47,694 bases of DNA from a bacterium HR30 (GTDB lineage Bacteria > Desulfobacterota > Binatia > HRBIN30), in the NCBI GenBank assembly GCA_002898795.1, contig BEIG01000012.1, forward strand, positions 1 to 47,694, written 5' to 3'. The notes beneath the pieces were generated by a model. That model saw only the letters and a list, made by a program, of their open reading frames with translations. It was not told where the DNA came from and did no database searches. Shown in pieces: positions 386 through 22,422 of the stretch. Positions within the stretch are counted from its first letter, which is position 1. Each line of letters opens with the position of its first letter. A program made the translations under genes and the position numbers.

Positions 386-3025
386 TTAGGTTGCGGCAGC
401 CATGGTGGTGCGCAGAAGCCTCCTTGCGGCGACATCGCCAACGAACGCGAACATCGCCAGCGGCAGGAACACCCACTCCAAAGACTTCGCCGCGGTTTGC
501 CTTCCGCGAGCGCGGCTGGCCACGATTTCTTCCGGGCTCGGGTCGAGCCGGCCTCCGGTTTCCCGCGCGAGGATCTCGAGTAACGACCGATTCGGCTCGC
601 GCACTTCCTCGCCACTGCCGCTACTCTCCCGGGGAAAGTAAACAGCAAAGCGACGCTCCTCCAACGCGCGCCCTCGAGAACGCAACAGCACCGTGAGTTC
701 CCCCGGCAAGCCTGCCGCGCTCCTAGCGGTAGCCACGAGTTTCCCTTCTCGAGCCGGCAAAAAGCGCAAATCTTGCACTTGCTCGCCTATCACCAACCGC
801 CCCAAGGCCTCCTCCGGCGCTGCGGACCCAAAACTCTCGAGCCAAATCCGCCAGCTACCCGCGGCCGCAGGTTCGACCCCGACGGCCACATCGCGAGGCG
901 AGATTTCTCGCAAGAGCCAGCGCAACAACTGCGCCCACAACTGCGAGCTTTGAGGCCAGGCAAGCCAGGGCTCGGCTCCTTCGCTCCAACCCGCCGTGAA
1001 CGTCACCGCACGACCCGCACCATAGTTCCACGCAGCGAGAAGGGGATCGGCGCGCTCCCCCTGCGTTGCCCGCAACCAAGGCTCCGCATCGGGCTTCAAG
1101 CGCGTGTAGGCATAACCAAGCAGCGGCGGAGCACTGTCCCAAGCAATGCCCTGCAATACTTGCGTGCGCTGCGCTGGCCGAGCCGTGACCACGCTCTCCC
1201 CGCGGGGCTTTTGCGTGATCACCCGGCTCGTGTCCTGTAACAACAACTGCGGTAGCTCGCTGGCGTCGCGCGCATGGTAAAATTTGCCACCCGTGCGGTC
1301 CGAGATCGACCGCAAAAACTCGAGATTCACCGTATCGTCGCCGATGCGGATCGTGGTCACGCTGACACCCGCCTGTTCCAGCGCCTGAAGAACCGGCTCG
1401 TGCTCTGCCGCCGAGCGGTTGGTGTCGCCATCGGTCAGCAGGATAATGTGGCCCAGACGAGCGCGATTCCGAGCCAGTTCGGCGCTCGCCCGTTTGAGCG
1501 CGTCGTAAAAATCCGTTCCGCCGCCTGGTTGCAGTCGCGCCACGTTGTGCTCGAGCAAGCCCCGGTTTTCCGCCAAAGGCGCCAAGGGGGCCACCTCGTA
1601 CATCTGCGAATCGAAGGCAATGACACCGACACGATCGCTGTCGCGCAGTTGCGAGATCAGCGCCAACGCAGCACGCCGTGCGTAGGAAAGCTTGGATTCC
1701 TCCTCGCTGCGCCGCATGCGATCGTGAATGTGGTAGCCCATGCTGTTCGAGCGATCGATGAGCAACACCAGCGACAGTGGCTCGCGTTCCGGGCGTGGGG
1801 GCCGCCGCGCCTCGAACGTCACCGGCAGTAAGCTGGCCAACGCGGTCGACTTCAACCGCAAATCGCCAAAGGTCGTTTCCCCACCCACGACCAGAAACCC
1901 GCCGCCTCGTTCGACATAGCTGCCCAGTTCCGACCAAACCCCTGGCGGGATCTTGCTCGTAGGCTCCTCCCAAACGACGGCGTGGTACGCATCCCAGTCT
2001 ACCGCGCGCTCGCGCACGGCATCGGGCGCGATGCGGCGCACTTCGAATTGCTGCGCCCGTGCCGTCGCGACGAGCGGAGAATGGCTGCGCTGCGTGATCA
2101 AGAGCACACGCGGAGCTGCGGTCAACGAGAGATTCGCACTGGCGCGGGCGACCGAAGTGAAATATCCGCCGCTCGAAGGCTCGACTTCCAAACTCACTCG
2201 GTACGCACCCGGCTCTGCTCCCTTCCATTCCAAGATGACCGGAACCATTCCCGGCTGCAGCTCCACGGTTCTGGTTTCGGCAAGCGCCTCGTTCACCCAC
2301 AGCCGTAACTTCGCTGCCTGCTCGTGCCCGCGGTGCACAAGCAATGCTCGCACCGGCACCACGGTGTGCGCCGGCGCAACCTTAGGCACAACCAGTTGGG
2401 CAACCTCCGTGACCCGCTCCGAGCTCTGTGGCGGAATGGGCACGTACACGGGCACCCGCATGCTTTGCAACACGGGGATCAAGCTGCGCACGTCCCCGCG
2501 GGTTTCGTTGCCGTCGGTGAGGAGCAAAATCTTCCGCTCGCGTCCATCCGGCAAAAGACCACGCGCAGTCTCGAATGCCGCGCTCAAGTCCGTTGCCTCG
2601 GGCTCGGGGGCGAACCCCAAGGAATCCGCGAGCGGAGCTGCGTCGGGCCAACGGGCTACCCGTGCCTGACCGGCAAAGACGACGATGCCGAGCTCGTCTT
2701 TAGGGCTCCGGCGCCGATCGACCTCGCGGAGAAACCGCTCCTGCCACGCACGGCCGGAATCGTCGATGCTCGCAGAGCGATCGACTAGCACCACCAAGGT
2801 CGCCGGCAGCTCCGGCAGCGGCACGCGCAAATGTACTCCGGCCAATCCGGCCACCGCAGCCACCCACGCGACACACCGCAACGTAACAACCAACGGCGAC
2901 CAGCCAGCTCGATATTTCCCCCAGTACAGGAACCAACCAACCCCGAGCAACGCAAGGAGTGCCAAGGGGTTCATCGCCCCGAGGGTCACTTCGCTGGCGC
3001 GCGACCATACGTAGTACCAGCTCAT
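386..3025 (-). CDS. Large membrane protein with two vWA domains and a glutamine-amidotransferase-like middle
   Basis: A predicted inner-membrane protein of 879 residues and last gene of the MoxR/vWA operon. Two helices open the protein (about 20-35 and 48-65). A first vWA domain follows with MIDAS motif DRSAS near residue 82 and an LLLTDGNE strand. Next is a stretch ending in ERGGGFLVVGGE that resembles the type 1 glutamine-amidotransferase-like fold of this family. A second vWA domain has DRSNS, GGGTDFYDAL and LLTDGD. A single helix (LEWVFLPLAMFAFVG) closes the chain. Its ATG overlaps the preceding stop by 4 nt (ATGA), so translation is probably coupled. vWA proteins beside MoxR AAA+ ATPases usually act in metal-dependent assembly or stress functions. 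The substrate here is unknown. Confidence 0.85.
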   Translation of the reverse strand: MSWYYVWSRASEVTLGAMNPLALLALLGVGWFLYWGKYRAGWSPLVVTLRCVAWVAAVAGLAGVHLRVPLPELPATLVVLVDRSASIDDSGRAWQERFLREVDRRRSPKDELGIVVFAGQARVARWPDAAPLADSLGFAPEPEATDLSAAFETARGLLPDGRERKILLLTDGNETRGDVRSLIPVLQSMRVPVYVPIPPQSSERVTEVAQLVVPKVAPAHTVVPVRALLVHRGHEQAAKLRLWVNEALAETRTVELQPGMVPVILEWKGAEPGAYRVSLEVEPSSGGYFTSVARASANLSLTAAPRVLLITQRSHSPLVATARAQQFEVRRIAPDAVRERAVDWDAYHAVVWEEPTSKIPPGVWSELGSYVERGGGFLVVGGETTFGDLRLKSTALASLLPVTFEARRPPRPEREPLSLVLLIDRSNSMGYHIHDRMRRSEEESKLSYARRAALALISQLRDSDRVGVIAFDSQMYEVAPLAPLAENRGLLEHNVARLQPGGGTDFYDALKRASAELARNRARLGHIILLTDGDTNRSAAEHEPVLQALEQAGVSVTTIRIGDDTVNLEFLRSISDRTGGKFYHARDASELPQLLLQDTSRVITQKPRGESVVTARPAQRTQVLQGIAWDSAPPLLGYAYTRLKPDAEPWLRATQGERADPLLAAWNYGAGRAVTFTAGWSEGAEPWLAWPQSSQLWAQLLRWLLREISPRDVAVGVEPAAAGSWRIWLESFGSAAPEEALGRLVIGEQVQDLRFLPAREGKLVATARSAAGLPGELTVLLRSRGRALEERRFAVYFPRESSGSGEEVREPNRSLLEILARETGGRLDPSPEEIVASRARGRQTAAKSLEWVFLPLAMFAFVGDVAARRLLRTTMAAAT

Positions 3026-4836
3026 CGCGTTACTCCCGAAGCAAGCCGGCTTGCAATCCAGGCTTCGAACAGCAGCAGCACCAATGCCGCAGTAAGCACA
3101 GCCTTACCCCAAGGAACTCTCTCGGTTGCCGCCAGCACCGATGGCCCAGTGGATGGTGCGCTCGCTGCGCGAAGCTTCGGTGCAATGTCCCCTTCCCGAG
3201 GATCGGCCGCTGCGACGTGAACAGAGGCTGTTCCCTTCGGACCATGGAATTCGTAATGGCCTCGCCAATGCGGAACGAAGCTTTCCGTCCCCGAGGGCAA
3301 TGGATGCTCTTCCCCGTTGGGAAGACGCACCACTGCTGGACTACCAACCGCCAGCGGCCAAGCCTGGCCCACCGGCCACACCGAGGCAGCAGGTTCCGCG
3401 GGTTTGAGCCAGGCCAGGCTCTGCAACAAGAACACGGCCAGCGGAAAGCCTTCCGAAGTGAGCAATGGTTCCCGCACCGGATCGAAAGCCCACCACACCT
3501 GCCGCCCTGGCGCTTCACTGGTCCAAGCGACGGTAACGAGCTCGTCCCCCGCCTTGCCCCACAGCAGTGGGGCGGCATTGCCCGAAACCTCGATGGCGCG
3601 AACCCTGGTGAGTGGCATGGGGAACGCCGGTGTCCATCCCGCGAAAATCGGGTGACGTGCGTCCCAGGCAACGAGCTTTACCTCGCGGAACGACCGGCCT
3701 GATTGCCCTGCGACCCGAGCTGGGGGATCAACCACCAAGGCTGGATGAGGAAAATCTTCGGGCGGACGCACCCGGTGGAACAAATACACATCGGCCTCTC
3801 CCCCACCCGTAGCGCAGCCGCGAGTGTCGAACCGAAGGTTCCGGGCGGCAGTACTCAACAACTGGAGTTCCGGCCATCGATCCAGTTGTGGCGAGACCAA
3901 GCACACCCGCAAAGAATCCGTTTCCGGCACGTAAACGCTAGCTTCGTTATCGGCCGCCAATAAATCCGGAACCAAGAGCCTTGCCGAAACAACTCCTGCA
4001 CCCACAAGCGGCTGCACGACCGTTTCCGTTTGTCCCGCCTCGAGCGTGAATCCCTTCTGCAGCAAGGGCTGCCCCTCTCTCTCCAACAACAAAAGCCCGT
4101 GCTTGGCCGTACTACCGAAGTTCCGCACCCGCAAAGCGAGTTCCGGCCGCGCGCCAGTTTGCCAACGCGGCTGGGTTATTTCCAAGCCTTCGATCCCGAC
4201 ATTGTCGTCGCCAACGCCTACGGGAAATAACTGTGCGTGGGCAATCAAAGCCGCAGGCAAATCGGCGTCGGCAAAGTCGCTGAACACAGCCACTTGCCCG
4301 CGTGGCTCCGCTGCCTGCACCAGGGAATGCGCGAGCGATAGTGCCTGCGCCAAACGGCCCCCACTGTCGTAAGGCTTCAAAGCCGCGAGCGAGCGCCGTA
4401 CCCCTTCCAAGTCGTTAGAGAAGGGAACCAACAGTTCCGCTTGTTCCGCTACGGACACCAGAGCCACTTGGTCGCCGGGCTTCAACGAAGATACGTAGCG
4501 GTCGGCTTCGGCTTTGGCGGCCTCGAAGCGCGTGCCTGCCCCGTACCTTGCCTGCATGCTCGCTGTACGATCCAACACCAGCACGTGCCGCTGCGGCAGC
4601 GAAGGGGCTGGCCGCTCCACGTACGGGCCCGCCAAAGCTGCCACCAAGGCCAACAAGGCCAGAAGTTGTAACAGCAGCAAAGGGTCCCACCGGCGCCGCC
4701 GCGGCGGAGGCAACTGCGGCCACAAAAACACCGCGGGCACGATGCGAGCGGGCTGGCGCTGCGGGCGCAAGAACAAATACAGGAGCACCAGTGCCAAGCT
4801 CGCGAAAATCCAACCAATGGGGTCGGTAAAGCCCAT
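3022..4836 (-). CDS. BatA-type vWA membrane protein
   Basis: A 604-residue protein with the N-terminal BatA arrangement: one helix near residues 5-22 (WIFASLALVLLYLFL), a proline- and arginine-rich loop, a second helix (LLLLQLLALLALVAALAG), then a vWA domain. The MIDAS motif reads DRTAS, with Thr for the usual first Ser, so metal binding may be altered. The C-terminal half is beta-rich and unassigned, and a final helix (AVLTAALVLLLFEAWIA) closes the protein. I chose ATG 4836 because a GAGG Shine-Dalgarno lies 6 nt upstream; an upstream TTG at 4869 would overlap the DUF58 gene. It ends in a 4-nt overlap with the next gene. Confidence 0.82.
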   Translation of the reverse strand: MGFTDPIGWIFASLALVLLYLFLRPQRQPARIVPAVFLWPQLPPPRRRRWDPLLLLQLLALLALVAALAGPYVERPAPSLPQRHVLVLDRTASMQARYGAGTRFEAAKAEADRYVSSLKPGDQVALVSVAEQAELLVPFSNDLEGVRRSLAALKPYDSGGRLAQALSLAHSLVQAAEPRGQVAVFSDFADADLPAALIAHAQLFPVGVGDDNVGIEGLEITQPRWQTGARPELALRVRNFGSTAKHGLLLLEREGQPLLQKGFTLEAGQTETVVQPLVGAGVVSARLLVPDLLAADNEASVYVPETDSLRVCLVSPQLDRWPELQLLSTAARNLRFDTRGCATGGGEADVYLFHRVRPPEDFPHPALVVDPPARVAGQSGRSFREVKLVAWDARHPIFAGWTPAFPMPLTRVRAIEVSGNAAPLLWGKAGDELVTVAWTSEAPGRQVWWAFDPVREPLLTSEGFPLAVFLLQSLAWLKPAEPAASVWPVGQAWPLAVGSPAVVRLPNGEEHPLPSGTESFVPHWRGHYEFHGPKGTASVHVAAADPREGDIAPKLRAASAPSTGPSVLAATERVPWGKAVLTAALVLLLFEAWIASRLASGVTR

Positions 4837-4858
4837 CGTTGCCCTCGACAGAACTTCG

Positions 4859-5815
4859 TCAGCCGACAATTCCGGCGTGCACTAGAGCTCCGAACAAACA
4901 AGAGTCCAAACCCGCGTCAGGGTCGACGTGCACGTAATAGAAGCCGTGGCGGTGGCAGCTATCGCGCAACTCGGCTTGGTGGTGCACCAAAACCTCGCGG
5001 TAACGAGCCCGCGTTGCGCTATCCCAAGCGAGGGTTCGCTCCTCGTTCGTCTCGGCGTCGCGCACGGTCAACACACCACTGGGCCAATCCCATTCGAAAT
5101 GGCTCCGAGGCAAAATTTGCAGGGCAACCACGGCCAAACGCCGTGCGGCCAATAAGGCCAGGGCGCGGCTAACCTCTTCTACCGGGTAGTAAAAATCGGA
5201 AAGGACAATGCTCACACCGGGCACCAGAGGCTGCGACAAAAAGCTTTCGAGCGCCAAACGTAAGTCCACGCGACCCGAGGGGCGAACCGCCTCCACGAAG
5301 CGTGCCGCCTCCAAGGCTTGCCGGCGGTGGCGCCACACCGGTGAGCGACGACAGGAAGAAGCCCCGCCCCCGAGCAGGCCGATCATCACGGGTTCGTGTC
5401 GGCGCAAACAAATGTAGGCCAGCGACGCAATCAGTTGGCGGGAGAAAGAAAAGGCACTCACCCCGCTACGAACGGACACGTCCATGGAAGCCGACGTATC
5501 CAGGAGCAAGTAGGTGGCGCTTTCTCGCTCGGCTCGGAACACGCGAAGAAGTAGTTCGTCCGTGCGCGCGTAAGCGTTCCAGTCGAGGTAGCGCAAATCG
5601 TCGCCCCACGTGTACGGGCGAAAGCCATGCACCTCGAATCCATACGGGGCCAAGGCACCGCGGGCGCGCTGGGCGCCTTCGCGCAAGGCAGTTGGCCGCG
5701 GCACGACCAACTGCACGCGGTCGAGCTTGCGTAAGAACTCCGGGTGAAACAACGGCGGTTCCGCTCGTGGCGCACTGGGGTTCGGTCGGTTGGGTTTTCG
5801 CCAAGGCCACGGCAT
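4859..5815 (-). CDS. DUF58 domain protein
   Basis: A soluble-looking 318-residue protein of the DUF58 family, which carries a degenerate vWA fold. The family signature is clear: YTWGDDLRYLDWNAYART, followed by a vWA-like strand LLLDTSASMD with a complete DxSxS motif. DUF58 proteins occur almost always directly after a MoxR ATPase, and here the start is 7 nt downstream of the moxR-like stop. The N-terminus (PWPWRKPNRPNP) is basic and proline-rich. The length matches typical members of about 300 residues. The precise function of DUF58 is not established; a role as a MoxR partner is inferred from gene order. Confidence 0.88.
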   Translation of the reverse strand: MPWPWRKPNRPNPSAPRAEPPLFHPEFLRKLDRVQLVVPRPTALREGAQRARGALAPYGFEVHGFRPYTWGDDLRYLDWNAYARTDELLLRVFRAERESATYLLLDTSASMDVSVRSGVSAFSFSRQLIASLAYICLRRHEPVMIGLLGGGASSCRRSPVWRHRRQALEAARFVEAVRPSGRVDLRLALESFLSQPLVPGVSIVLSDFYYPVEEVSRALALLAARRLAVVALQILPRSHFEWDWPSGVLTVRDAETNEERTLAWDSATRARYREVLVHHQAELRDSCHRHGFYYVHVDPDAGLDSCLFGALVHAGIVG

Positions 5816-8209: not shown

Positions 8210-8379
8210 GATTCCAACTCGCCTCGGGAACATAGTCGACACCTTCGCAAGTGTTCAACATGAAAGAAGAGCGCTGCCGTACGCTTCCGCGCACAATCGA
8301 TTCTTGCCTGAAGGAACGCCCGATGCACCCTGGCCCTGCTTGACCTTTTCCCGTTCTCGTGTTGCCCCATGGAGCCTCC

Positions 8380-9564
8380 ATGGCTCCCAGTCGCTCGCAG
8401 GCACGCGGACAAGGATGCGATCGCGGAAATCCACAGCGGCGCGGTTCGGCAACGCGAGGTTCCGCCGCGGCCCTCCTTCGCCTCGACCCGGCTGAGATTC
8501 GTTGGTTTCGCCGGCGCTTGCTCCGTTGGTACCGCAAGTACGCGCGCCCTTGGCCCTGGCGAGCTTCGGCAAATTCGTACCACGTGTGGGTGGCCGAGGT
8601 GATGCTTCAGCAAACCCGGGTCGAAGTGGTGGCCAAGGCGTTTCCACGGTTTCTTGCGCGGTTTCCTTCGGTAGCGGACCTCGCCCTGGCACCGCTCGAA
8701 AATGTGCTCGCGGTGTGGTCGGGGCTCGGCTACTACACGCGCGCTCGCAACCTGCACCGTGCAGCGCAGTGGCTCTGGAAACATGGTTACAGGGAGTTCC
8801 CGCGTGAACCCTCTTTGGCGCGAGCCCTTCCAGGGGTCGGCCCCTATACCGTAGCGGCCGTGCTCTCCATTGCTTACAACCAGCGCCTGGCTGCCGTCGA
8901 CGCCAACGTGCGGCGCGTGCTGGGCAGAGTGACCGGCAACCCCAGCGCAACCAAGAACGGAAAGCTCGCTCAGGCAATCGCCGTAGCCCTGCTCGACCCC
9001 CATGCACCTGGCGACTGGAACCAAGCATTGATGGAGTTGGGTCAGCGACTGTGCATTCCTCGCACCCCACAATGTCCGGCGTGTCCGTGGCAACCGCGTT
9101 GCGCCACCGCACGAAGTTCCGTAGCCCTCAGGATTGCGGCGCCACGCCGCCGCGGGCCAGGCAAGTCGCCCATCGAGCTCGTTGCAGATCTCGTCTTCGA
9201 TACGCGGGGGCGCATCGTGGTGGAAAGAGGCGTTTTCCCCTACCTTCGGCACCTGTGGGTTCCGGTCTTGCACGAGGCGCAAGCGTCCGCTGCTGGGCTT
9301 GCCCCTAGTCGTGGCCAATCTCTCGGCACGTTTCGCCATGCCATTGGCAAGCGGCAGTTTCGTGTGTCGGTGTACCTGCGGAAACTTTCGAACCAAAAAG
9401 CAACCCGATTCCTCCACGACGTGCCGGCACCCGGAGAACGACGGCTGGTGACACCGAAAGAGCTCGAACACCTGGGGCGTTCGTCGTTGCTGCTCAAATC
9501 TTGGCAGTTGTGGGTGCGGCAATTAGCGCGCGGCGGTGTTGCGTTTTCCGAGGCGAACCAGTAA
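8380..9564 (+). CDS. mutY: A/G-specific adenine DNA glycosylase MutY
   Basis: This enzyme removes adenine mispaired with 8-oxoguanine during base-excision repair. The 394-residue protein shows the QQT motif (VMLQQTRVEVV), the helix-hairpin-helix LPGVGPYTVAAVLS, the catalytic Asp in AVDANVRRVLGR, and a complete 4Fe-4S loop C-x6-C-x2-C-x5-C (CIPRTPQCPACPWQPRC). A NUDIX-like C-terminal domain follows and would read the 8-oxoG. The first 30 or so residues are Arg/Gly/Ser-rich and not conserved. I chose ATG 8380 because GGAG lies 5 nt upstream; GTG 8359 is also in frame. The next gene starts 24 nt after the stop. Confidence 0.95.
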   Translation: MAPSRSQARGQGCDRGNPQRRGSATRGSAAALLRLDPAEIRWFRRRLLRWYRKYARPWPWRASANSYHVWVAEVMLQQTRVEVVAKAFPRFLARFPSVADLALAPLENVLAVWSGLGYYTRARNLHRAAQWLWKHGYREFPREPSLARALPGVGPYTVAAVLSIAYNQRLAAVDANVRRVLGRVTGNPSATKNGKLAQAIAVALLDPHAPGDWNQALMELGQRLCIPRTPQCPACPWQPRCATARSSVALRIAAPRRRGPGKSPIELVADLVFDTRGRIVVERGVFPYLRHLWVPVLHEAQASAAGLAPSRGQSLGTFRHAIGKRQFRVSVYLRKLSNQKATRFLHDVPAPGERRLVTPKELEHLGRSSLLLKSWQLWVRQLARGGVAFSEANQ

Positions 9565-9587: not shown

Positions 9588-10652
9588 ATGCGCAAATATC
9601 GGGTCATTCAGTGGGCTACGGGTCATGTCGGGAAACACGCTCTGCGCGCCATTGCGCAGCATCCGGAGCTGGAGCTGGTTGGCGTGTGGGTCTCGAGCCC
9701 GCAAAAGGTCGGGCGCGATGCTGGCGAACTTTGCGGCATTGGCGCTACGGGGGTGAAAGCGACCAACGACTTCGACGCTTTGCTAGCCACCGAGGCCGAC
9801 TGCGTGTGTTACACTGGGGCGACCGACGACCGCCCGACGGAAGCCATCGAAGACATGTGCCGCATGCTCGCCGCGGGCAAAAACGTGGTCACGAGTTCCT
9901 TCGTACCTCTGATCTATCCTTGGCACGTGATTCCAGCCTTCGCGCGGCAACTGGAAGATGCCTGCCGCCAGGGGCAGACGAGTTTTTACTGCTCGGGGAT
10001 CGACCCTGGATTCTCTCCCGACGTGCTCCCCATCACACTATCGAGCCTGTGCGAACGGATCGATTCCATCCGTGCACAAGAAATCTTCAACTATGCCACT
10101 TACGATCAGCCGCACACGCTCTTCGAAGTCATGGGCTTCGGCAAGCCCCCGGGCACACCGGTACCCCTGTTTGCACCCGGCGCGCTGTCGATGGCGTGGG
10201 GTGCGTCGGTACGCATGGTAGCCGACGCGTTGGGAGTCGAGCTCGACGGCATCGAGCAACGGCATGAAGTGGAGGTGGCCCCGGAGGATTTCGAAATTTC
10301 CTGCGGTGCCATCCGCAAGGGTACGGTGGCGGCGTTGCGCTTCGAAGTCATGGGCATGGTACGAGGCGAGCCGCGCATCGTGGTGGAGCATGTCACGCGT
10401 TTGCGCGACGACTTGGCCCCTCACTGGCCGCAAGGCGTGGGGCCGGGGACGTACCGGGTAACCATCGAGGGCATGCCGTCGCTGCGCTGCGACTTACAGG
10501 TGGGGTTTCACAGTGCCGATCACAACATCGATGGCTGCGTGGCCACAGCAATGCGTTTGGTGCACGCCATTCCCGCGCTTTGCCAGGCAAACCCCGGTGT
10601 GAAAACTTATCTCGATCTGCCACTCACACCTGGCCGCCATGCGCTTCGTTGA
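9588..10652 (+). CDS. DapB-like NAD(P)H-dependent oxidoreductase
   Basis: A 354-residue protein with an N-terminal Rossmann fold (VIQWATGHVGKHALRAI) and the domain order of dihydrodipicolinate reductase-like enzymes, the group that includes 2,4-diaminopentanoate dehydrogenase. Motifs include CYTGATDDRP, the SGIDPGFSPDVLP segment and HSADHNIDGCVATAMRLVHAIP near the C-terminus. True DapB is about 270 residues and has a different substrate motif, so this is unlikely to be the lysine enzyme. The substrate is unknown; an amine or amino acid is a guess from the family. ATG 9588 follows a GAGGGAAG ribosome-binding site. An upstream extension would overlap mutY and is not conserved. Confidence 0.8.
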   Translation: MRKYRVIQWATGHVGKHALRAIAQHPELELVGVWVSSPQKVGRDAGELCGIGATGVKATNDFDALLATEADCVCYTGATDDRPTEAIEDMCRMLAAGKNVVTSSFVPLIYPWHVIPAFARQLEDACRQGQTSFYCSGIDPGFSPDVLPITLSSLCERIDSIRAQEIFNYATYDQPHTLFEVMGFGKPPGTPVPLFAPGALSMAWGASVRMVADALGVELDGIEQRHEVEVAPEDFEISCGAIRKGTVAALRFEVMGMVRGEPRIVVEHVTRLRDDLAPHWPQGVGPGTYRVTIEGMPSLRCDLQVGFHSADHNIDGCVATAMRLVHAIPALCQANPGVKTYLDLPLTPGRHALR

Positions 10653-10853
10653 GCCGAACCTGCGCGAGGCTCGCGACGGGCGAGTTCCTGGCGTTCGGGC
10701 TTTTGCGTTGGCAGAATCTCGAAGCGCTCAAGCTTGGCGGCACGAAGGTGACCTTGGCAGCGCGCGCCAATCTCGTTGCTGTGGCCCTCGTTTCTTGCGC
10801 GACAGTTCGATATAAGGGCGCCGTGTCGCAGCAGCCCACAACACACTTGTTCA
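10653..10853 (+). promoter_or_regulatory. Intergenic stretch with a candidate -10 box for the aminotransferase transcript
   Basis: No gene is visible between the oxidoreductase stop and the structured leader. TATAAG at 10811-10816 matches a -10 box at five of six positions, but no good -35 lies 16-18 bp upstream. Transcription from it would begin near 10823 and give a leader of about 145 nt that contains all three stems described in the next entry. Confidence 0.3.
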
Positions 10854-10968
10854 GCCGTGGACGTGGCAAGCGGCAGCGTCCACGGCAGACGAAAATCCAC
10901 ACAGGAGTTGTGTGGCGGAGCGGTGCGAGGGCGGTCTTCTCCTGTGCAAAAGCTCGAGGAGACGCGAA
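10854..10968 (+). promoter_or_regulatory. Structured 5' leader with two perfect hairpins and a Shine-Dalgarno-covering stem
   Basis: Stem 1 is a perfect 10-bp helix (GCCGTGGACG 10854-10863 with CGTCCACGGC 10877-10886, 13-nt loop). Stem 2 is a perfect 7-bp helix (CCACACA 10897-10903, TGTGTGG 10909-10915) whose loop GGAGT belongs to an upstream Shine-Dalgarno-like AGGAG. Stem 3 pairs TCTCCT 10938-10943 with AGGAGA 10957-10962, which is the Shine-Dalgarno of the aminotransferase. A 20-codon frame (GTG 10910, TGA 10970-10972) overlaps the aminotransferase ATG as ATGA, and GTG 10912 is in frame with the enzyme. I do not recognise a known riboswitch consensus. Regulation is inferred from structure alone. 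Confidence 0.5.
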
Positions 10969-12348
10969 ATGACAGATACGGTGCATCGTTTTGCCCCCCG
11001 TCATTTGGTTTGCGGGTTCGTGTCGCCGTACCAAGTGATGCAGCAGGGCACCCTGCGGCTCGTCAAGGGCCGAGGTATTTATGTGTGGGATCAACATGGC
11101 CGCCGGTATATCGACGGTCTCGCTTCGCTGTGGAACGTCGCTGTGGGTCATGGCCAGCCGAGCATCGCACGGGCCGTTGCCCGGCAGATGAACCACTTGG
11201 CTTATGCCCCCACGCTTCTTGGTTTTTCCTCTCAGCCGGCCGAGGAGCTTGCGCGGCGAATTGTCCAGCTCGCGCCTCGCGGGCTGACCCGGGTGCTGTT
11301 CACCTCGGGAGGATCGGAAGCCAACGAATCCATCATTCGCCTGGTGCGACTGTACTGGCGACTTAAAGGGCACCCGGAAAAATTTCGCATTGTTACCTTG
11401 AACCGGGGCTACCACGGGTCGTCCACGGGTGCCGCCAGCCTGACTGGCCTTCCTTACTTCCACCAGTACTACGAACCCCTCATGGAGGGCGTGCTGCGGC
11501 TGCCGCGCCCGCACTGTCGGCGGTGCGAACTGCAACTCGAGCACCCCTCCTGCGAGATTGCCTGCGCCAACGAACTGGAGCAACTGATCCAGCGCGAGGG
11601 GGCGCAAACGATCGGAGCGGTGCTGATCGAGCCCGTCCAAGGTGTCGGCGGTGTCATCGTACCTCCCGAGGGCTACCACCAGCGACTGCGCGAGATTTGC
11701 TCGCGCTACGACATCTTGCTCGCTTGTGACGAGGTGATCACCGGCTTTGGCCGCTTGGGTTACCCTTTTGGCATCCAGCGCTGGCGGGTCACACCGGATC
11801 TGATCTCATTCGCCAAGGGAGTGACCAGCGGCTACCTGCCACTCGGCGGTGTGCTCTTGAGCGAGGAAATTTACCGAACCCTCGTGCAAGCTGGCCCCGA
11901 ATTTTCTTTGCACCACGGCTTTACCTATTCTGGGCATCCAGCGGTTTGCGCTGCGGCTTTGGCGAATTTGAACCTGATGCGAAGGCGCCGATTGATGTCG
12001 CGTGCGCGACGCCTGGAAGCTTACCTGGCAAACCTTTTGGAACCGCTCAAACGGCACGGGGTGGTGAGAGAAATTCGCGTGATCGGACTCATGGCTGCAG
12101 TGGAATTCGAGAGCAGCCAGGTGCCAACGGCGAGCGGGCAGTGGCCACTCGCGGTGCAAGTGCGGCAGGCATGTTTGGAGCGAGGGCTCATCGTGCGAGC
12201 TAGTGGCGACGTGGTTGCGGTATGCCCGCCCCTGGTGGTGAAAACTTCCGAGCTCAAGCAAATCGTCGACACCATCGACCGGGCCATCGAGGCGGTGGTG
12301 ACTAACGCCAAGGAGTCGGCTCGGCAGTCGACCCGTGCCAATGGTTGA
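10969..12348 (+). CDS. Class III PLP-dependent aminotransferase
   Basis: A 459-residue fold-type I, class III aminotransferase (the omega-amino acid:pyruvate / putrescine / acetylornithine superfamily), cytosolic and PLP-dependent. Visible motifs are the GGSEANE cofactor-binding segment, GYHGSS, LIEPVQGVGG, CDEVITGFGRLG with the PLP-binding Asp, and the Schiff-base Lys in SFAKGVTSGYLPLGG. An insertion reads CRRCELQLEHPSCEIAC, a four-cysteine motif found in some members. The exact amino donor cannot be told. It precedes argC by 33 nt, which could hint at arginine or ornithine metabolism, but the protein looks unlike ArgD. ATG 10969 has AGGAGA 6 nt upstream, inside the leader stem. Confidence 0.85.
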   Translation: MTDTVHRFAPRHLVCGFVSPYQVMQQGTLRLVKGRGIYVWDQHGRRYIDGLASLWNVAVGHGQPSIARAVARQMNHLAYAPTLLGFSSQPAEELARRIVQLAPRGLTRVLFTSGGSEANESIIRLVRLYWRLKGHPEKFRIVTLNRGYHGSSTGAASLTGLPYFHQYYEPLMEGVLRLPRPHCRRCELQLEHPSCEIACANELEQLIQREGAQTIGAVLIEPVQGVGGVIVPPEGYHQRLREICSRYDILLACDEVITGFGRLGYPFGIQRWRVTPDLISFAKGVTSGYLPLGGVLLSEEIYRTLVQAGPEFSLHHGFTYSGHPAVCAAALANLNLMRRRRLMSRARRLEAYLANLLEPLKRHGVVREIRVIGLMAAVEFESSQVPTASGQWPLAVQVRQACLERGLIVRASGDVVAVCPPLVVKTSELKQIVDTIDRAIEAVVTNAKESARQSTRANG

Positions 12349-12381
12349 GCAGGCGGCAGCAAGCTCCTACACGTAAGGGTC

Positions 12382-13332
12382 ATGCGACCGAAGATTTACG
12401 TGGACGGCCAGGAGGGTACGACCGGTCTGCGCATCCGCGACTGGCTGTCGTGGCGAGGCGACCTGGAGCTAATCGTTTTGCCGCACGCGCGGCGCAAAGA
12501 CCCTGAAGCTCGTTACGAAGCGATGGCCGCTGCGGATGTCGTCATTCTCTGTTTGCCCGACGAGGCCGCGCGCGAGGCTGCCCACTGGGCCACCAAAGCG
12601 GGAACGCGGCTGATCGACGCGAGCACTGCCCATCGAGTGCATCCGGAATGGGTGTACGGGCTTGCGGAGATCGGACCGGAACAAGAAGCCGCCATTCGCG
12701 GCGCGGAGCGCGTGGCCAACCCAGGGTGCTATGCCACAGCCTTTATCCTTTTGCTTCGCCCGTTGATCGACCGGGGGTTGGTCGACCCCAAAGCGCCCAT
12801 CGTTTGCCATGCCCTTTCCGGGTACTCGGGAGGAGGCCGGGCACTGATCGAGCGGTGGGAGGACCCGCAAAAAGGGCTCAGCGCCCTACCTTACGAGGCT
12901 CCGTACGCCTTGCAACGCGTGCACAAGCACGTGCCGGAGATGACCCGTTACACCGGACTTGCCACCGAGCCGTACTTCGAACCAGCCGTGGGGCCGTTCC
13001 GATGCGGTATGCGCGTGCAAATTCCGTTACATGCGCACTTACTCCAGGGTTCTCCCCGCGACGTCTGGGAAACGTTGGCCGAACGTTACGAAGGGCAACC
13101 GTTCGTGCGCTTGCAACCTTACACGGAAAATGGCGACTTGGACGAAGAAAGCTTGAGCCCCCTGGCTTGCAACGACACGAACCGCATCGACTTGCACGCC
13201 ATCCCACACCCTTCGGGTCACGTTCTACTCGTGGCGATTCTCGACAACCTTGGGAAAGGGGCCGCCGGCAACGCCATTCAAAACCTCAATCTCATGCTGG
13301 GACTGCCCGCCCATACCGGTCTGCCCTCGTAG
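12382..13332 (+). CDS. argC: N-acetyl-gamma-glutamyl-phosphate reductase, short (type 2) form
   Basis: Catalyses the NADPH-dependent reduction of N-acetylglutamyl phosphate to the semialdehyde in arginine synthesis. At 316 residues it matches the shorter type 2 ArgC. The nucleotide-binding start is KIYVDGQEGTTGLRI, the catalytic Cys lies in NPGCYAT, and the C-terminal half has HKHVPEM and GYSGGGRALIE. The gene sits alone among arginine genes, with no argB, argJ or argD nearby, though it follows a class III aminotransferase by 33 nt and may share its transcript. The start is the first ATG. The assignment is firm, apart from possible action on LysW-bound substrates, which I cannot exclude. Confidence 0.92.
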   Translation: MRPKIYVDGQEGTTGLRIRDWLSWRGDLELIVLPHARRKDPEARYEAMAAADVVILCLPDEAAREAAHWATKAGTRLIDASTAHRVHPEWVYGLAEIGPEQEAAIRGAERVANPGCYATAFILLLRPLIDRGLVDPKAPIVCHALSGYSGGGRALIERWEDPQKGLSALPYEAPYALQRVHKHVPEMTRYTGLATEPYFEPAVGPFRCGMRVQIPLHAHLLQGSPRDVWETLAERYEGQPFVRLQPYTENGDLDEESLSPLACNDTNRIDLHAIPHPSGHVLLVAILDNLGKGAAGNAIQNLNLMLGLPAHTGLPS

Positions 13333-13361
13333 CGGCTGCGACGGGCAAGCCTCACCGTGCG

Positions 13362-13444
13362 TCCGTAGGCACGTGGAATGACCGTACCGCCGCGCAAGAA
13401 GCCACTTAAGTCGCCACGTGCCTCCGTAGGCACGTGGAGTGACC
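13362..13444. repeat. Two 22-bp direct repeats, the second within a 10-bp-stem hairpin
   Basis: A 22-bp sequence beginning TCCGTAGGCACGTGGA occurs at 13362-13383 and again at 13423-13444 with one mismatch, 61 bp apart. Around the second copy CCACGTGCCT (13414-13423) and AGGCACGTGG (13428-13437) form a perfect 10-bp stem with loop CCGT. It lies between convergent argC and the alcohol dehydrogenase gene, so a bidirectional terminator is possible, but no T-tract follows on either strand. Confidence 0.6.
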
Positions 13445-13473: not shown

Positions 13474-14499
13474 TCACGGGCGTTCGGGACCGCTGTCGTC
13501 GCCGACGAGCAACACGCCCGTGCCCTCTAAGCCATCGTGCTTCAGTTGCCGCAGCGCTTCGTTCGCTTCCGACAGCGGGAAGTGCGTCGTGCGCGGACGA
13601 ATCGGAATCTCCGCCGCGAGCGCCAGCATTTCGTCTCCGTCGGCTCGGGTGTTGGCGGTGACGCTGCACAAATTCTTTTCGTAAAACAGGTGGCGCTCGT
13701 ACTGGAGTTGAGGCACGTCGGTCAGGTAAATTCCGGCAATCGCTAACGTGCCACCACGGTCGAGCGCTTCCAAAGCTGGCGGCACCAGGTGGCCCACCGG
13801 CGCGAATAGAATGGCCGAATCGAGCGGAACTGGTGGCTTTTCCGATGCGTCGCCCACCCAAACCGCGCCAAGTGCCCGCGCCAGTTCTCGGTGCTTTAGC
13901 TCCCTCGTCATCACGTACACCTCGCAGCCCCAGTACCGCGCCACTTGAATGGCAATGTGCGCGGAAGATCCGAAACCGTACATGCCCAAACGGCAGCCAG
14001 GGCGCGTGTTCGCCCGGCGCAAAGCTCGGTAACCGATGATTCCTGCGCACAGCAGTGGGGTGGCCTCGGCGTCGCCCAGCGAAGGTGGAATGGCGTAAGC
14101 AAACTGCTCTGGCACGACTGCGTACTCGGCGTAGCCGCCATCCTCGTGGTATCCTGTGAAACGGGCATTCGGGCACAAGTTCTCTTGCCCTTTCGCACAA
14201 TACCGACAGGAGCCGCAGGTAGAGCGCAACCACGCAATGCCCACGCGGTCGCCCAGTTGAAAGCGCGACGTACCCTCGCCCAACGCGACCACTGTGCCCA
14301 CAACCTGATGGCCGGGCACGACTTGGTCGCGCACCGGCGGCAGGTCACCCTCGACAATGTGCAAGTCGGTACGACAAACCCCACAGGCTCGCACGCGAAG
14401 GAGTAATTCCCCCCGGCGCGGCTCCGGTACGGGCAGATCCCTCCACTCGAGTGGCCGTTCCTCGATTGGTTTTGGTTGGCGAACCACGAGAGCTTTCAT
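13474..14499 (-). CDS. Zinc-dependent alcohol dehydrogenase
   Basis: A 341-residue medium-chain dehydrogenase/reductase expected to oxidise or reduce an alcohol/aldehyde with NAD(P). Catalytic zinc ligands are the Cys in CGVCRTDLH and the motif around GHQVVGTV, where the usual GHE reads GHQ. The structural zinc loop is CGSCRYCAKGQENLC with four cysteines. A Rossmann segment MYGFGSSAHIAIQVA follows. Length and layout fit the AdhA/AdhP-like group. I start at ATG 14499 (MKALVV); ATG 14523 is in frame, and the frame stays open to 14802, but that extension is translated hairpin repeat and should not be included. Its promoter must lie in or next to repeat cluster 2. Confidence 0.9.
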   Translation of the reverse strand: MKALVVRQPKPIEERPLEWRDLPVPEPRRGELLLRVRACGVCRTDLHIVEGDLPPVRDQVVPGHQVVGTVVALGEGTSRFQLGDRVGIAWLRSTCGSCRYCAKGQENLCPNARFTGYHEDGGYAEYAVVPEQFAYAIPPSLGDAEATPLLCAGIIGYRALRRANTRPGCRLGMYGFGSSAHIAIQVARYWGCEVYVMTRELKHRELARALGAVWVGDASEKPPVPLDSAILFAPVGHLVPPALEALDRGGTLAIAGIYLTDVPQLQYERHLFYEKNLCSVTANTRADGDEMLALAAEIPIRPRTTHFPLSEANEALRQLKHDGLEGTGVLLVGDDSGPERP

Positions 14500-14557
14500 C
14501 CACCCGTTGATTACCGCGAGCATTAGCCCCCGGCAACGCGCGTTAGGGGACCACCGC

Positions 14558-15182
14558 GGGCGCATTGTAATGCCCCCTGGGAGCGCGGGCGTCCCCGTCC
14601 GGCACATCGTGCGAACACATGTGTCGTGCGCACCAGCCCGGCCTTTTCCTGCGGGCCTTCGGCCCGCACGCGGCAGCACGGCTGCCGCACTCCAAAAACG
14701 GCATGCGCCCCTACGTGTTAGCGGCATTCGGGTTGGGCGGAAAACCCGGTGGTGATGGGTACCGCACGCACCAGCATGGCTGCCGCACTCCAAAAACGGC
14801 ATGCGCCCCTACGACGTGCTGGTCGCGTTTCAGTTGCATTGGCAACGCACGTGGTGATGGACGCACGGGCGCACTGCCGTGCGCCCCTACCGTCCATGGT
14901 GGCGCGGGTGCGGCGATTGCGACGATGGTGGTGGCGGTGGAAACACGGGCGCATTGCCATGCGCCCCTACGAGCGCGGACGTCCCCGCCGGCACTTTTCC
15001 TGCGGGCCTTCGGCCCGCACGCGGCAGCACGGCTGCCGCACTCCAAAAACGGCGTGCGCCCCTACGTGTTAGCGGCATTCGGGTTGGGCGGAAAACCCGG
15101 TGGTGATGGGTACCGCACGCACCAGCACGGCTGCCGCACTCCAAAACGCGCCGTGGGTCCCTACGCGGCGATCCGCCCCTAC
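14558..15182. repeat. Repeat cluster 2: mosaic of hairpin modules
   Basis: A mosaic of short palindromic modules, most ending in CTAC. It contains the two-hairpin composite (cores at 14867 and 14947, 80 bp apart), two copies of the module with stems TGCGGGCC/GGCCCGCA and GCGGCAGC/GCTGCCGC (14650-14715 and 14998-15065), and a module beginning GTGTTAGCGGCATTCGG twice (14716 and 15066). A worn hairpin lies at 14559-14577. The cluster fills the whole gap between the alcohol dehydrogenase start and the dCMP deaminase stop, and its right end overlaps that stop codon. Confidence 0.9.
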
Positions 15183-19021: not shown

Positions 19022-21520
19022 CTACGCGTGACCACTGCCAACGTGGCGGCGAAAGAACGAGCGCTTAACCTGTTCGACCAGGAAGAGGTACGCGAGCACA
19101 ACCGCAGCTAACACGACAAAAAACAGCGGGGGCAAGGGCCGGAAGCCGAGGTAGGGAGCCAACGGGGAAAAGGGCAAGAGCACGGCCAGGGCGACAACCC
19201 CGAGTGCGGCCGCAGCAAGAGATGGGTGAGGTCGGCTCCGCAAGGGGCTTTGTCGCGTGCGTAGGACAAAGATCACCAACACCTGCGTGGCTACGGACTC
19301 GACAAACCAACCCGTGTGGAACAACACCTGGTCAGCCGCGAACAAGCGAAGCAGCAGGTAAAAGGTGAGGAAGTCGAAGACCGAGCTGATCGGTCCAACG
19401 GAAAGCATGAAATCGCGAACAAAGCGCATCTCCCACTTGCGGGGCTTCTGCATGTCCTCTTCGTCCACTTGGTCGAGCGGTAAGGGAATTTCCGAGAGGT
19501 CATACAGCAAGTTGTTCAGCAAGATTTGCAGCGGCCGCATAGGCAAAAACGGCAAGAACAAAGTGGCGCCGGCCATGCTGAACATGTTTCCAAAGTTGGA
19601 GCTCGTGGCCATCATGATGTACTTCATCACGTTGCCAAAGGTGCGGCGCCCTTCGCGAATGCCGGCGTGCAAGACGCGCAAATCCTGTTGCAACAAGATG
19701 AAATCGGCCGCGTGCTTGGCCACGTCTACCGCGCTATCGACGGAGATCCCCACATCGGCTGTATGCAACGATGGAGCATCGTTAATGCCGTCCCCCAGGT
19801 AGGCCACCACGTGCCCCCGCGCCTTGAGCGCCAACAGCACGCGGTTTTTCTGCATGGGATCGAGCCGGCAGAAAATATTACACGCTTCCACGCGGGCTCG
19901 CAGAGCTTCGTCGTTCATGGCCGCGATCTCTTTCCCGGTCAGCACGCCGGCCACGGGCAAGTGGAGTTGGGTACATACATGACGGGTAACCCGCTCGTTG
20001 TCGCCGGTAAGGATTTTGACCGCCACGCCGCTGTCGATGAGTGCCTGAACCGCCAAACTGGCTGAGGCCTTCGGCGGGTCGAAAAAAGCTGCGAAGCCAG
20101 CGAACACCAAGTCCGTCTCGTCGGCAACGGATGCATGGTCACGCGCGGGCTCCACTTCCTTCCACGCGATGGCCAGCACGCGAAACCCGTCCTCGCCCAA
20201 GTTGTCGAACAATTGAGTCGCGCGCGCTCGAACCGCTGCGTCGAACCCCTGCACGGTGCCACTGCCCGTTTCGAACCCTTTGCACTGGGGGAGGATTTCC
20301 TCCGGCGCCCCTTTCACCAGCAAGAAGCGACGGCCCTCGCGCTCCAACAGGACGGAAATTCGCCGCCGCTCGAAATCGAAGGGAACTTCGTCGACTTTGC
20401 GCCACTGCGAAGCATCGATCTCGCGGTGCTCCAGGATCGCCTCGTCCATGGGGCTTTTGAGCCCGGTCTCGAAAAAGCTGTTAAGGTACGCCAGCTCCAG
20501 CACGTGCTCGCTAGCGTTGCCATCGATGTCGACATGTCGCTCCAGGCGGATTTTGGCTTCAGTAAGAGTCCCCGTTTTGTCGGTGCACAAGACGTCCACC
20601 GCGCCCAAATCCTGAATTGCCGAGAGTCGCTTCACGATCACGTTTTCCTTGGCCATGCGCAGGGCACCTCGAGCCAGTGTGACCGACACGATCATGGGCA
20701 GCAGTTCGGGGGTGAGGCCCACAGCTAACGCCACGGCAAACAAAAACGACTCGAGCAGGGGCCGTTGGAAAAGAAGATTCACCAACAACACGAACAGCAC
20801 CAGCCCCACCGTGAGGCGCATGATTAGCAGGCCAAACTGCCGGGTGCCGATTTCGAACGCTGTGGGCGGAGCCGGACGCTCCAGGCTGCCCGCAATACGC
20901 CCGAGGAGAGTGCGCGAACCAGTGTGCAGCACCAACATGCGCCCGGTCCCACTCACCACAGAACTCCCCAGGAACAGAGCGTAGGGCACTTCCGGGCTCA
21001 GAGCCTGCGGTTGTTGCGGAAGAGTTCCGGCCGGGGCTGCATGTCTTTCCACTGGGTATGGCTCGCCCGTGAGCGCCGCCTGATCGACGAAAATGTCCTT
21101 CCCCTCCAAGAGCCAACCATCCCCCGGAACCAAGTCTCCCGCAGCGAGCAGGACAACATCTCCCGGCACGATGGCGGAAAACGGCAGTTCCCACACCTTA
21201 CCGTCGCGCAGCACATGTGCAGTCAGCGCCACCCGTCGAGCCAGCGCTTCCGCAGCGCGGCCCGCTCGGTATTCTTGCACAAAATCCAGCGAGACACTGA
21301 GCACAATGATTGTCGCGATGATGCCCGCCCCCGCGACGTCGCCGGTCATCGCCGATACCGCACTGGCAAACAACAGCACGGACACCAGCGGGTTGGCAAA
21401 CCGCGCTAGGAACTGGCGTAGCACCTGCGTACGGCCAGTGCCCCCGAACTCGTTCGGCCCAAAACGCTCGAGCCGCTGCCGGGCCTCCTCGCTGGACAAA
21501 CCGCTACTCAGCTCCGTCAC
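19022..21520 (-). CDS. mgtA: Magnesium-translocating P-type ATPase (MgtA-like)
   Basis: A P-type ATPase of the P3B group, expected to import Mg2+ into the cytoplasm. The phosphorylation site is CTDKTGTLTEAKI, with TGEPYPVE in the actuator domain, KGAPEEI in the nucleotide domain, TGDNERVT and the hinge GDGINDAPSLHTADVGISVDSA. About ten helices are visible, with the last six in the C-terminal 250 residues. The start is uncertain. GTG 21520 gives an 832-residue protein beginning before the conserved LSSEEARQRLERFGPNEF. TTG 21550 is an alternative, and the frame runs to 21622 only through repeat-derived sequence. The 5' end abuts repeat cluster 3, so its leader may be repeat-derived. Confidence 0.93.
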   Translation of the reverse strand: MTELSSGLSSEEARQRLERFGPNEFGGTGRTQVLRQFLARFANPLVSVLLFASAVSAMTGDVAGAGIIATIIVLSVSLDFVQEYRAGRAAEALARRVALTAHVLRDGKVWELPFSAIVPGDVVLLAAGDLVPGDGWLLEGKDIFVDQAALTGEPYPVERHAAPAGTLPQQPQALSPEVPYALFLGSSVVSGTGRMLVLHTGSRTLLGRIAGSLERPAPPTAFEIGTRQFGLLIMRLTVGLVLFVLLVNLLFQRPLLESFLFAVALAVGLTPELLPMIVSVTLARGALRMAKENVIVKRLSAIQDLGAVDVLCTDKTGTLTEAKIRLERHVDIDGNASEHVLELAYLNSFFETGLKSPMDEAILEHREIDASQWRKVDEVPFDFERRRISVLLEREGRRFLLVKGAPEEILPQCKGFETGSGTVQGFDAAVRARATQLFDNLGEDGFRVLAIAWKEVEPARDHASVADETDLVFAGFAAFFDPPKASASLAVQALIDSGVAVKILTGDNERVTRHVCTQLHLPVAGVLTGKEIAAMNDEALRARVEACNIFCRLDPMQKNRVLLALKARGHVVAYLGDGINDAPSLHTADVGISVDSAVDVAKHAADFILLQQDLRVLHAGIREGRRTFGNVMKYIMMATSSNFGNMFSMAGATLFLPFLPMRPLQILLNNLLYDLSEIPLPLDQVDEEDMQKPRKWEMRFVRDFMLSVGPISSVFDFLTFYLLLRLFAADQVLFHTGWFVESVATQVLVIFVLRTRQSPLRSRPHPSLAAAALGVVALAVLLPFSPLAPYLGFRPLPPLFFVVLAAVVLAYLFLVEQVKRSFFRRHVGSGHA

Positions 21521-22422
21521 GCCACACGGTCGCTTACCACGAACGACCAACCCATCGTAAGGCCACCACAGCGAGGGTAAGAGCACACTGCCGTGTACGG
21601 GCGCACGGCCGCGCAGGGGCACACGGCGTGTTTTGGAGTGCGGCAGCCATGCTGGTGCATGCGGTACCCATCACCACCGCCTTTTCCGCCCAACCCGAAT
21701 GCCGCTAACACGTAGGGGCGCATGGCAATGCGCCCGCGTTTCCACCGCCACCACCATCGTCGCAATCGCCGCACCCGCGCCACCATGGACGGTAGGGGCG
21801 CACGGCAGTGCGCCCGTGCCTCGATCATTACGTGCGTTGCCGCAGTTGAAACGCCACCAACACGTCGTAGGGGCGCATGGCGTTTTTGGAGTGCGGCAGC
21901 CATGCGGGTGCGTGCGGGCCGAAGGCCCGCAGGAAAAGGCCGGGCGCGTGCGCACGACACATGTGTTCGGTCGTTGTGCGGACGCGGACGCCCGCGCTCC
22001 CGTGGGGGCGATGTGCCGGCGCATGGCCCCGTAGGGGCGCATGGCAATGCGCCCGTGGTTCCCCCACCTCGTGCGTTGCCAACACGGCTGAAACGTCACC
22101 AACATCTCGCACGACCCATGTGTTCGCGCGTTGTGCGGAGGAGGACGCCCGCGCTCCCGTGGGGGCGATGTCCCGGCGCATGGCCCCGTAGGGGCGCACG
22201 GCAGTGCGCCCGTGCCTCCACCACCACGTGCGTTGCCAACGCAATTGAAACGCGACCAACACGTCGTAGGGGCGCATGCCGTTTTTGGAGTGCGGCAGCC
22301 ATGCTGGTGCGTGCGGTACCCATCACCACGGCCTTTTCCGCCCAACCCGAATGCCGCTAACACGTAGGGGCGCATGGCAATGCGCCCGTGGTTCCACCAC
22401 CTCGTGCGTTGCCAGCACGGCT

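Follow-up and report, generated by a model that had tools for sequence, protein, structure and literature searches.

The window that we analyzed, a stretch of 47,694 nucleotides at the start of contig BEIG01000012.1 from bacterium HR30 (Binatia), belongs to a 3.73-Mb genome in 211 contigs. An earlier note, made from the letters alone, had described a structured leader at 10811–10971, ahead of an aminotransferase gene, as having the layout of a cis-regulatory RNA that matched no known class. The genes around this leader are as follows:

8359–9564, HhH-GPD glycosylase
9588–10652, dehydrogenase with a 2,4-diaminopentanoate dehydrogenase domain
10969–12348, forward strand, class III (omega-type) aminotransferase (Pfam PF00202, E = 7.5e-92)
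12382–13332, forward strand, argC, N-acetyl-gamma-glutamyl-phosphate reductase (TIGR01851, 368 bits against a cut-off of 229.85)

A zinc alcohol dehydrogenase gene comes next after argC, on the opposite strand, and argC would be the second gene of the aminotransferase operon. The argC protein matched only itself in the genome at E ≤ 1e-20, and the gene looks like the only argC that the genome has. The aminotransferase scored under the cut-off for each of the best 25 of 69 NCBIfam families, argD included. We rejected the idea that it is ArgD because it reached 245 bits against a cut-off of 410 and the genome has a separate argD, scoring above its cut-off, on another contig. By annotation, its best solved relatives are class III aminotransferase, amine, 4-aminobutyrate, and polyamine:pyruvate transaminases, with putrescine aminotransferase ranking lower.

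In a genome from another genus of the same family (L021, positions 1507–3958), a dehydrogenase 77% identical to that of 9588–10652 lies directly upstream of a 41%-identical aminotransferase in the same orientation. Roughly 70 nt separate the two matches, which is too short for such a leader, so the gene pair recurs there without it. The pairing may therefore predate the leader, or the leader may have been lost elsewhere.

We compared the leader across three species of the genus: that of the window (G000) and two relatives (G001 and G002). It is present in all three, with one match in each, and comprises these elements:

10787–10822, forward strand, promoter-like block, CTCGTTTCTT (10787–10796) and then TATAAG (10811–10816); the three species agree in 29 of 36 columns
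10823–10846, forward strand, conserved 5′ strand
10823–10972, forward strand, putative coding frame of 49 codons, from GTG 10823 to TGA 10972, its stop sharing an ATGA with the enzyme start; uninterrupted and equally long in all three species
10854–10886, forward strand, hairpin P2, 11 bp with a variable loop; 3 of the 11 pairs vary, with pairing kept in all three species
10898–10914, forward strand, hairpin P3, CACACA-GGAGU-UGUGUG; 6 bp, invariant in all three species
10898–10949, forward strand, invariant core of 52 nt: P3, a G-rich linker (10915–10934), and the anti-Shine-Dalgarno strand
10900–10907, forward strand, left strand of helix C, CACAGGAG; 8 Watson-Crick pairs with 10939–10946, possible in all three species
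10939–10946, forward strand, right strand of helix C, CUCCUGUG; shares positions with the anti-Shine-Dalgarno strand 10938–10943
10935–10962, forward strand, hairpin D over the Shine-Dalgarno sequence, in two registers (10935–10941 with 10956–10962 or 10938–10943 with 10957–10962)
10956–10961, forward strand, Shine-Dalgarno sequence GAGGAG of the aminotransferase; 10952–10962 identical in all three species

Every element of the earlier description was found in its place, and the observation as a whole emerged stronger than first stated. The first of its two perfect hairpins is the 10-bp inverted repeat of P2 (10854–10863 with 10877–10886, loop of 13 nt), which an eleventh pair (10864 with 10876, U-G in the window) extends. 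Of 2000 shuffles of the 146-nt leader, 0.5% contained a perfect 10-bp repeat with a loop of 3–20 nt. The second hairpin, 10897–10903 with 10909–10915, also stands in the window, but only six of its pairs occur in every one of the three species, the seventh (10897 with 10915) being confined to the window. The 6-bp pairing that had been drawn over the ribosome-binding site (UCUCCU 10938–10943 with AGGAGA 10957–10962) is there as well; the alternative register of hairpin D (UCUUCUC 10935–10941 with GAGGAGA 10956–10962) has equal duplex energy, and both registers cover the Shine-Dalgarno sequence. A further helix, P1, can form between UCGCA (10826–10830) and UGCGA (10924–10928); its pairs are invariant in all three species, and it appears in the lowest-energy folds of G000 and G001 and is absent from that of G002. 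The predicted fold of 10811–10971 reaches −70.2 kcal/mol, against −56.3 kcal/mol (sd 4.1) for dinucleotide shuffles, and beats 200 of 200 of them (z = −3.4). The lowest-energy structure does not quite reproduce the three hairpins of the earlier note, as the 5′ strand is a competing partner for the second stem.

The syntenic DNA of the two relatives aligns to the window in long pieces at about 65–79%, and the three-way alignment of 16.4 kb has a mean identity of 57.5%. Three-way identity is 21% in the upstream gap (10653–10784), 77% in the leader (10785–10968), and 68% in the enzyme. Upstream of the promoter-like block it is 0–5% (10740–10779), and the conserved island starts at about 10787. 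The longest identical run in the alignment, 52 nt at 10898–10949, is the core of the leader; the next longest are two runs of 20 nt, one of which starts at 10811, within the same leader. At the identity of the enzyme (0.68) and with sites assumed to be independent, runs of 52 nt would be expected 1e-5 times in the 16.4-kb syntenic region, in which the identical runs were surveyed, and 0.002 times in 3.7 Mb. Within the island, identical columns form a mosaic: 22 of 24 in the 5′ strand, 0 of 7 in the linker after it, 10 of 11 and 8 of 11 in the arms of P2, 6 of 11 in its loop, 1 of 11 in the next linker, 52 of 52 in the core, and 11 of 11 in the Shine-Dalgarno region. Such quick-changing linkers beside an invariant core would speak against the stretch as a whole having been transferred or gene-converted recently.

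Two other features of the window deserve mention in their own right. The other of the two 20-nt runs, joint second longest in the syntenic region, lies at 19572–19591. Two 163-nt direct repeats (14633–14795 and 14984–15146, 96% identical) enclose a shorter repeat pair (14851–14890 and 14931–14970), and pieces near 146–327, 14841–14890, and 21792–21842 match one place in G001; the repeats around 14633–15146 look like a dispersed repeat.

The aminotransferase provided the yardstick for what peptide constraint leaves behind in this genus. Its codon positions 1, 2, and 3 are identical in the three species at 83%, 93%, and 27%, respectively; 25% of its conserved-residue codons (Met and Trp left out) are identical, and its longest run of identical codons is three. 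In the leader frame, the core amounts to 17 consecutive identical codons, a run that, with enzyme third positions at 27% and codon runs of at most three, does not come from peptide constraint alone. The comparison indicates that the constraint on the leader acts on the nucleic acid and not on the encoded peptide.

With TATAAG heading the conserved island, transcription would start near 10823, upstream of all the hairpins. An element like TTGACA at −35 was not found before TATAAG, and a consensus promoter scan gave no match there. Two other signals were considered within the leader and rejected: an intrinsic terminator on the minus strand (10915–10897), whose T-run is missing from the other two species, and a sigma-54 promoter inside the core, whose GG and GC elements are, by eye, one base closer than in the consensus.

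For a transcript running from 10823 to 15 nt past the ATG, the predicted probability that AGGAG is unpaired is 0.003, 0.001, and 0.042 in the three species, against means of 0.50–0.55 when the true start was kept and the part upstream was shuffled. Between 0.3% and 1.3% of the 300 shuffles per test were as closed as the full leader in each of the three species, although these tests are not independent because the core is identical. When only the 40 nt before the start were modeled, 2–16% of shuffles were as closed, and sequestration was not unusual. In another set of nine constructs, the Shine-Dalgarno sequence was at least 83% paired in eight; in a construct from 10811 to 3 nt past the ATG, it was 59% unpaired in G002, versus 14% and 3% in the other two species. 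Folding thus predicts, for a transcript from 10823 and with this one G002 construct excepted, an expression platform that hides the Shine-Dalgarno sequence in all three species.

A switch would need a second state, and the leader offers a candidate for one. The strand CUCCUGUG can pair either within D, on the Shine-Dalgarno side, or with CACAGGAG, which is otherwise part of P3, and the two arrangements are mutually exclusive. Of the helices of at least 6 bp that are possible in all three species, only one has a lower duplex energy than the latter pairing, helix C, and 8 bp against the anti-Shine-Dalgarno strand were matched by 2.6% of 3000 shuffles. The fold with helix C is 8.4–9.9 kcal/mol less stable than the best fold, and its equilibrium probability was 0.00 in all nine ensembles computed. 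Switching would therefore need strong binding energy or co-transcriptional folding. With that proviso, helix C is the most plausible candidate for the ON state.

Covariation, which the earlier note had proposed as a test, gives little to go on with three sequences. P2 has at least four substitutions with its pairing kept; at one pair, the three species have U-G, U-A, and C-G. These changes are consistent with a selected stem. They are not significant in the shuffle control (337 of 500 shuffles scored as high), and in the RNAalifold analysis no pair differs on both sides from its commonest form. The other helices (P1, P3, D, and C) are invariant, which leaves them neither supported nor refuted by covariation.

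We searched for the leader among known families and in other genomes. Against Rfam 15, it matched no family at the gathering score in the Infernal comparison that the earlier note had suggested; the only three matches of the window are tRNAs, and relaxed filters added for the leader one chance-level snoRNA match (16 bits against a gathering score of 94, E = 3.3). With blastn against 58 relatives, only members of the genus stood above chance, the best match outside the genus having E = 0.0017 in a search whose limit of E ≤ 10 let all 58 genomes show something. A covariance model (R1) found three carriers, all in the genus, among 148 genomes of the class, with a best E of 0.013 outside the genus and with 23 of the 148 showing something at E ≤ 0.5; among 395 genomes sampled from the phylum, it found one carrier, the window's own genome. 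Both R1 searches used the stricter filters of Infernal, at which some weak matches are lost. An exact 24-base pattern from the core had no match in viral contigs. Before the orthologous aminotransferase of another genome of the same family (L042), no conserved blocks were seen by eye, and the likely ATG has a GGAG 7 nt ahead of it. This orthologue (L042, positions 4001–5247) aligns as two forward pieces that differ in frame and are separated by a gap of about 24 residues, and may reflect an assembly error or a damaged gene.

A search of the literature for a riboswitch with a class III aminotransferase, or with Binatota, found nothing, and one that combined riboswitch, argC, leader, and translation returned nothing on the subject as judged by titles and the starts of abstracts. 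In the excerpts returned, none of the best 12 of 27,887 matches had the word Binatia, and the best 15 of 36 matches appeared to be general discovery papers and papers on single riboswitch classes (for example, PMC11109978 and PMC2864571).

The main rival to an RNA switch, or a co-player with it, is translation of the leader frame. Under this doubtful but serious alternative, ribosomes would read the 49-codon frame, open D, and hand over at the ATGA, with stalling as the regulatory event; they would start at GTG 10823, possibly on a leaderless transcript, or at an inner start such as GTG 10910. The earlier note had drawn attention to two shorter frames. Its 20-codon frame from GTG 10910 to TGA 10972, which ends on the enzyme start as ATGA, is real as a frame, but its use as a start is unsupported, as is that of GTG 10912, another real frame, whose own AGGAG (10903–10907) stands only 4 nt before it. 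An N-terminal extension of the enzyme from GTG 10912 was rejected: three orthologues (L006, L011, and L012) have, by eye, an ATG within about three codons of ATG 10969.

The 49-codon frame is open, identical in length, and ends on the ATGA in all three species, and no other forward frame is free of stops in all of them, each of the other two having a stop in one species. The TATAAG ends 6 nt before GTG 10823. The frame also has no gap opening over its 34 variable columns, against 12 over 112 variable columns in 10653–10822, a rate that predicts about 3.6; after argC, 13333–13405 has 5 over 66. Rates are lower in two other stretches, with 0 gap openings over 12 variable columns in 12349–12381 and 12 over 693 in 14400–15170 (where the count probably reflects long gaps at repeats that the relatives lack), and the indel-free leader is therefore weak evidence. 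Moreover, the variable columns of the frame fall on codon positions 1, 2, and 3 as 12, 9, and 13, versus about 76, 34, and 333 in the enzyme (chi-square p = 6e-6), and 15 of the 19 varying codons change the residue, yet 17 consecutive codons are identical, which points to RNA. The best match of the peptide outside the genus has E = 0.0046, which is at chance level, with 128 of 148 genomes matching at E ≤ 1, and the ATGA overlap results from the Met-Thr start of the enzyme. The frame thus lacks the signature of coding constraint while being kept open and in register in all three species with no gap opening. This absence of indels is mildly surprising, and it keeps alive a role for translation of the leader or for strict spacing.

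Two further alternatives both seem unlikely to us. In the first, control would act at the DNA level, with the dyad CACACA-N5-TGTGTG and the conserved block forming a repressor operator to which RNA structure is incidental. The dyad is a perfect one of 6 bp, with one exact copy in the genome and two more places with one mismatch; this single copy does not speak for a regulon-wide operator, while being still compatible with a dedicated regulator. Against an operator, the identity continues for 35 nt past the dyad with no symmetry seen, the dyad would lie ~75 nt downstream of the transcription start, the Shine-Dalgarno sequence and its complementary strand are both kept, and the changes in P2 leave G-U pairs, which are meaningless to a DNA-binding protein.

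In the second, an RNA-binding protein or a small RNA, and not a metabolite, would act on the conserved core. CsrA sites have a motif with GGA in a hairpin loop, and the GGA in the loop of P3 (ACA-GGA), together with the GGA in the Shine-Dalgarno sequence, resembles this layout. However, CsrA (PF02599) was detected in none of seven genomes of the family, the three carriers included, whereas 6 of the 29 genomes searched had it, with 3 of 14 control genomes positive; we rejected CsrA as the regulator on this count. For a small RNA, the genome of the window has, among the matches listed, no long sequence elsewhere that is similar or complementary to the leader (others at chance level, E = 0.36 or worse). 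Some protein other than CsrA may act on the core instead. Least probable, and by a long way, is ordinary GC-rich structure without function: GC-rich leaders fold readily, and the window has six perfect 10-bp inverted-repeat matches (two of them overlapping) against zero to five in ten shuffled windows, but conservation contradicts it, with the 52-nt run expected 1e-5 times in 16.4 kb for independent sites.

We return to the reading that we prefer. The supposition of a cis-regulatory RNA of no known class is supported by conservation far above the surroundings, by predicted sequestration in all three species, and by the lack of an Rfam match. Most likely, the strongly constrained leader regulates translation initiation as RNA. 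The computed basis is constraint at the nucleic-acid level, pairing kept in P2, and predicted sequestration in three species. Somewhat on the favorable side of even, in our judgment, is the fuller account in which D hides the Shine-Dalgarno sequence, the core senses, and refolding releases translation of the aminotransferase and argC. A transcript from about 10823 would then control initiation at the aminotransferase and, through it, at argC. By default, hairpin D would pair the Shine-Dalgarno sequence with the upstream UCUCC strand and keep ribosomes off. The 52-nt invariant core would be the sensing part, scaffolded by the sequence-variable P2, and its refolding, most plausibly an exchange of P3 and D for helix C (10900–10907 with 10939–10946), would free the Shine-Dalgarno sequence. 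What we infer here is that such a transcript and operon exist, that the leader switches, and in which direction and on what signal it does so.

That the leader is a putative metabolite riboswitch is plausible, and because of the genes controlled, its signal should be sought first among amines, ornithine, and arginine. A bolder version is tentative: a new riboswitch class of this one genus of Candidatus Binatia, in which the core binds a metabolite of an amine or arginine pathway and helix C replaces hairpin D, possibly alongside a translated leader frame. If true, a regulatory RNA would control what appears to be the sole argC together with an omega-type transaminase, in a bacterial class whose known laboratory models are few, if there are any. 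This RNA might sense a metabolite that no known RNA sensor reports, and, with a same-family orthologue lacking the leader, it would be a riboswitch-like leader that arose, or last survives, in one lineage.

Leaders of several known systems invite comparison. Leader-peptide attenuation or coupling, as by SpeFL of speF, is alike in its open frame ending on an ATGA start and in the genes of amine or arginine type downstream of that frame; our leader differs in its nucleotide-level invariance without a codon-position signature. CsrA-controlled leaders share the GGA in a hairpin loop and in the Shine-Dalgarno sequence, and the difference is that CsrA was not detected in the three leader-carrying genomes. 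Compared with translational riboswitches, the leader has no Rfam match, was found in one genus only, and has a switch helix that is not favored in silico, and its ligand-binding role is putative. It is like them in having a conserved core and a variable scaffold stem before a hairpin predicted to hide the Shine-Dalgarno sequence, a candidate for a mutually exclusive alternative pairing, and metabolic genes downstream. Although without a known family under which to file it, the leader belongs to a known type of device, the leaders that hide a Shine-Dalgarno sequence.
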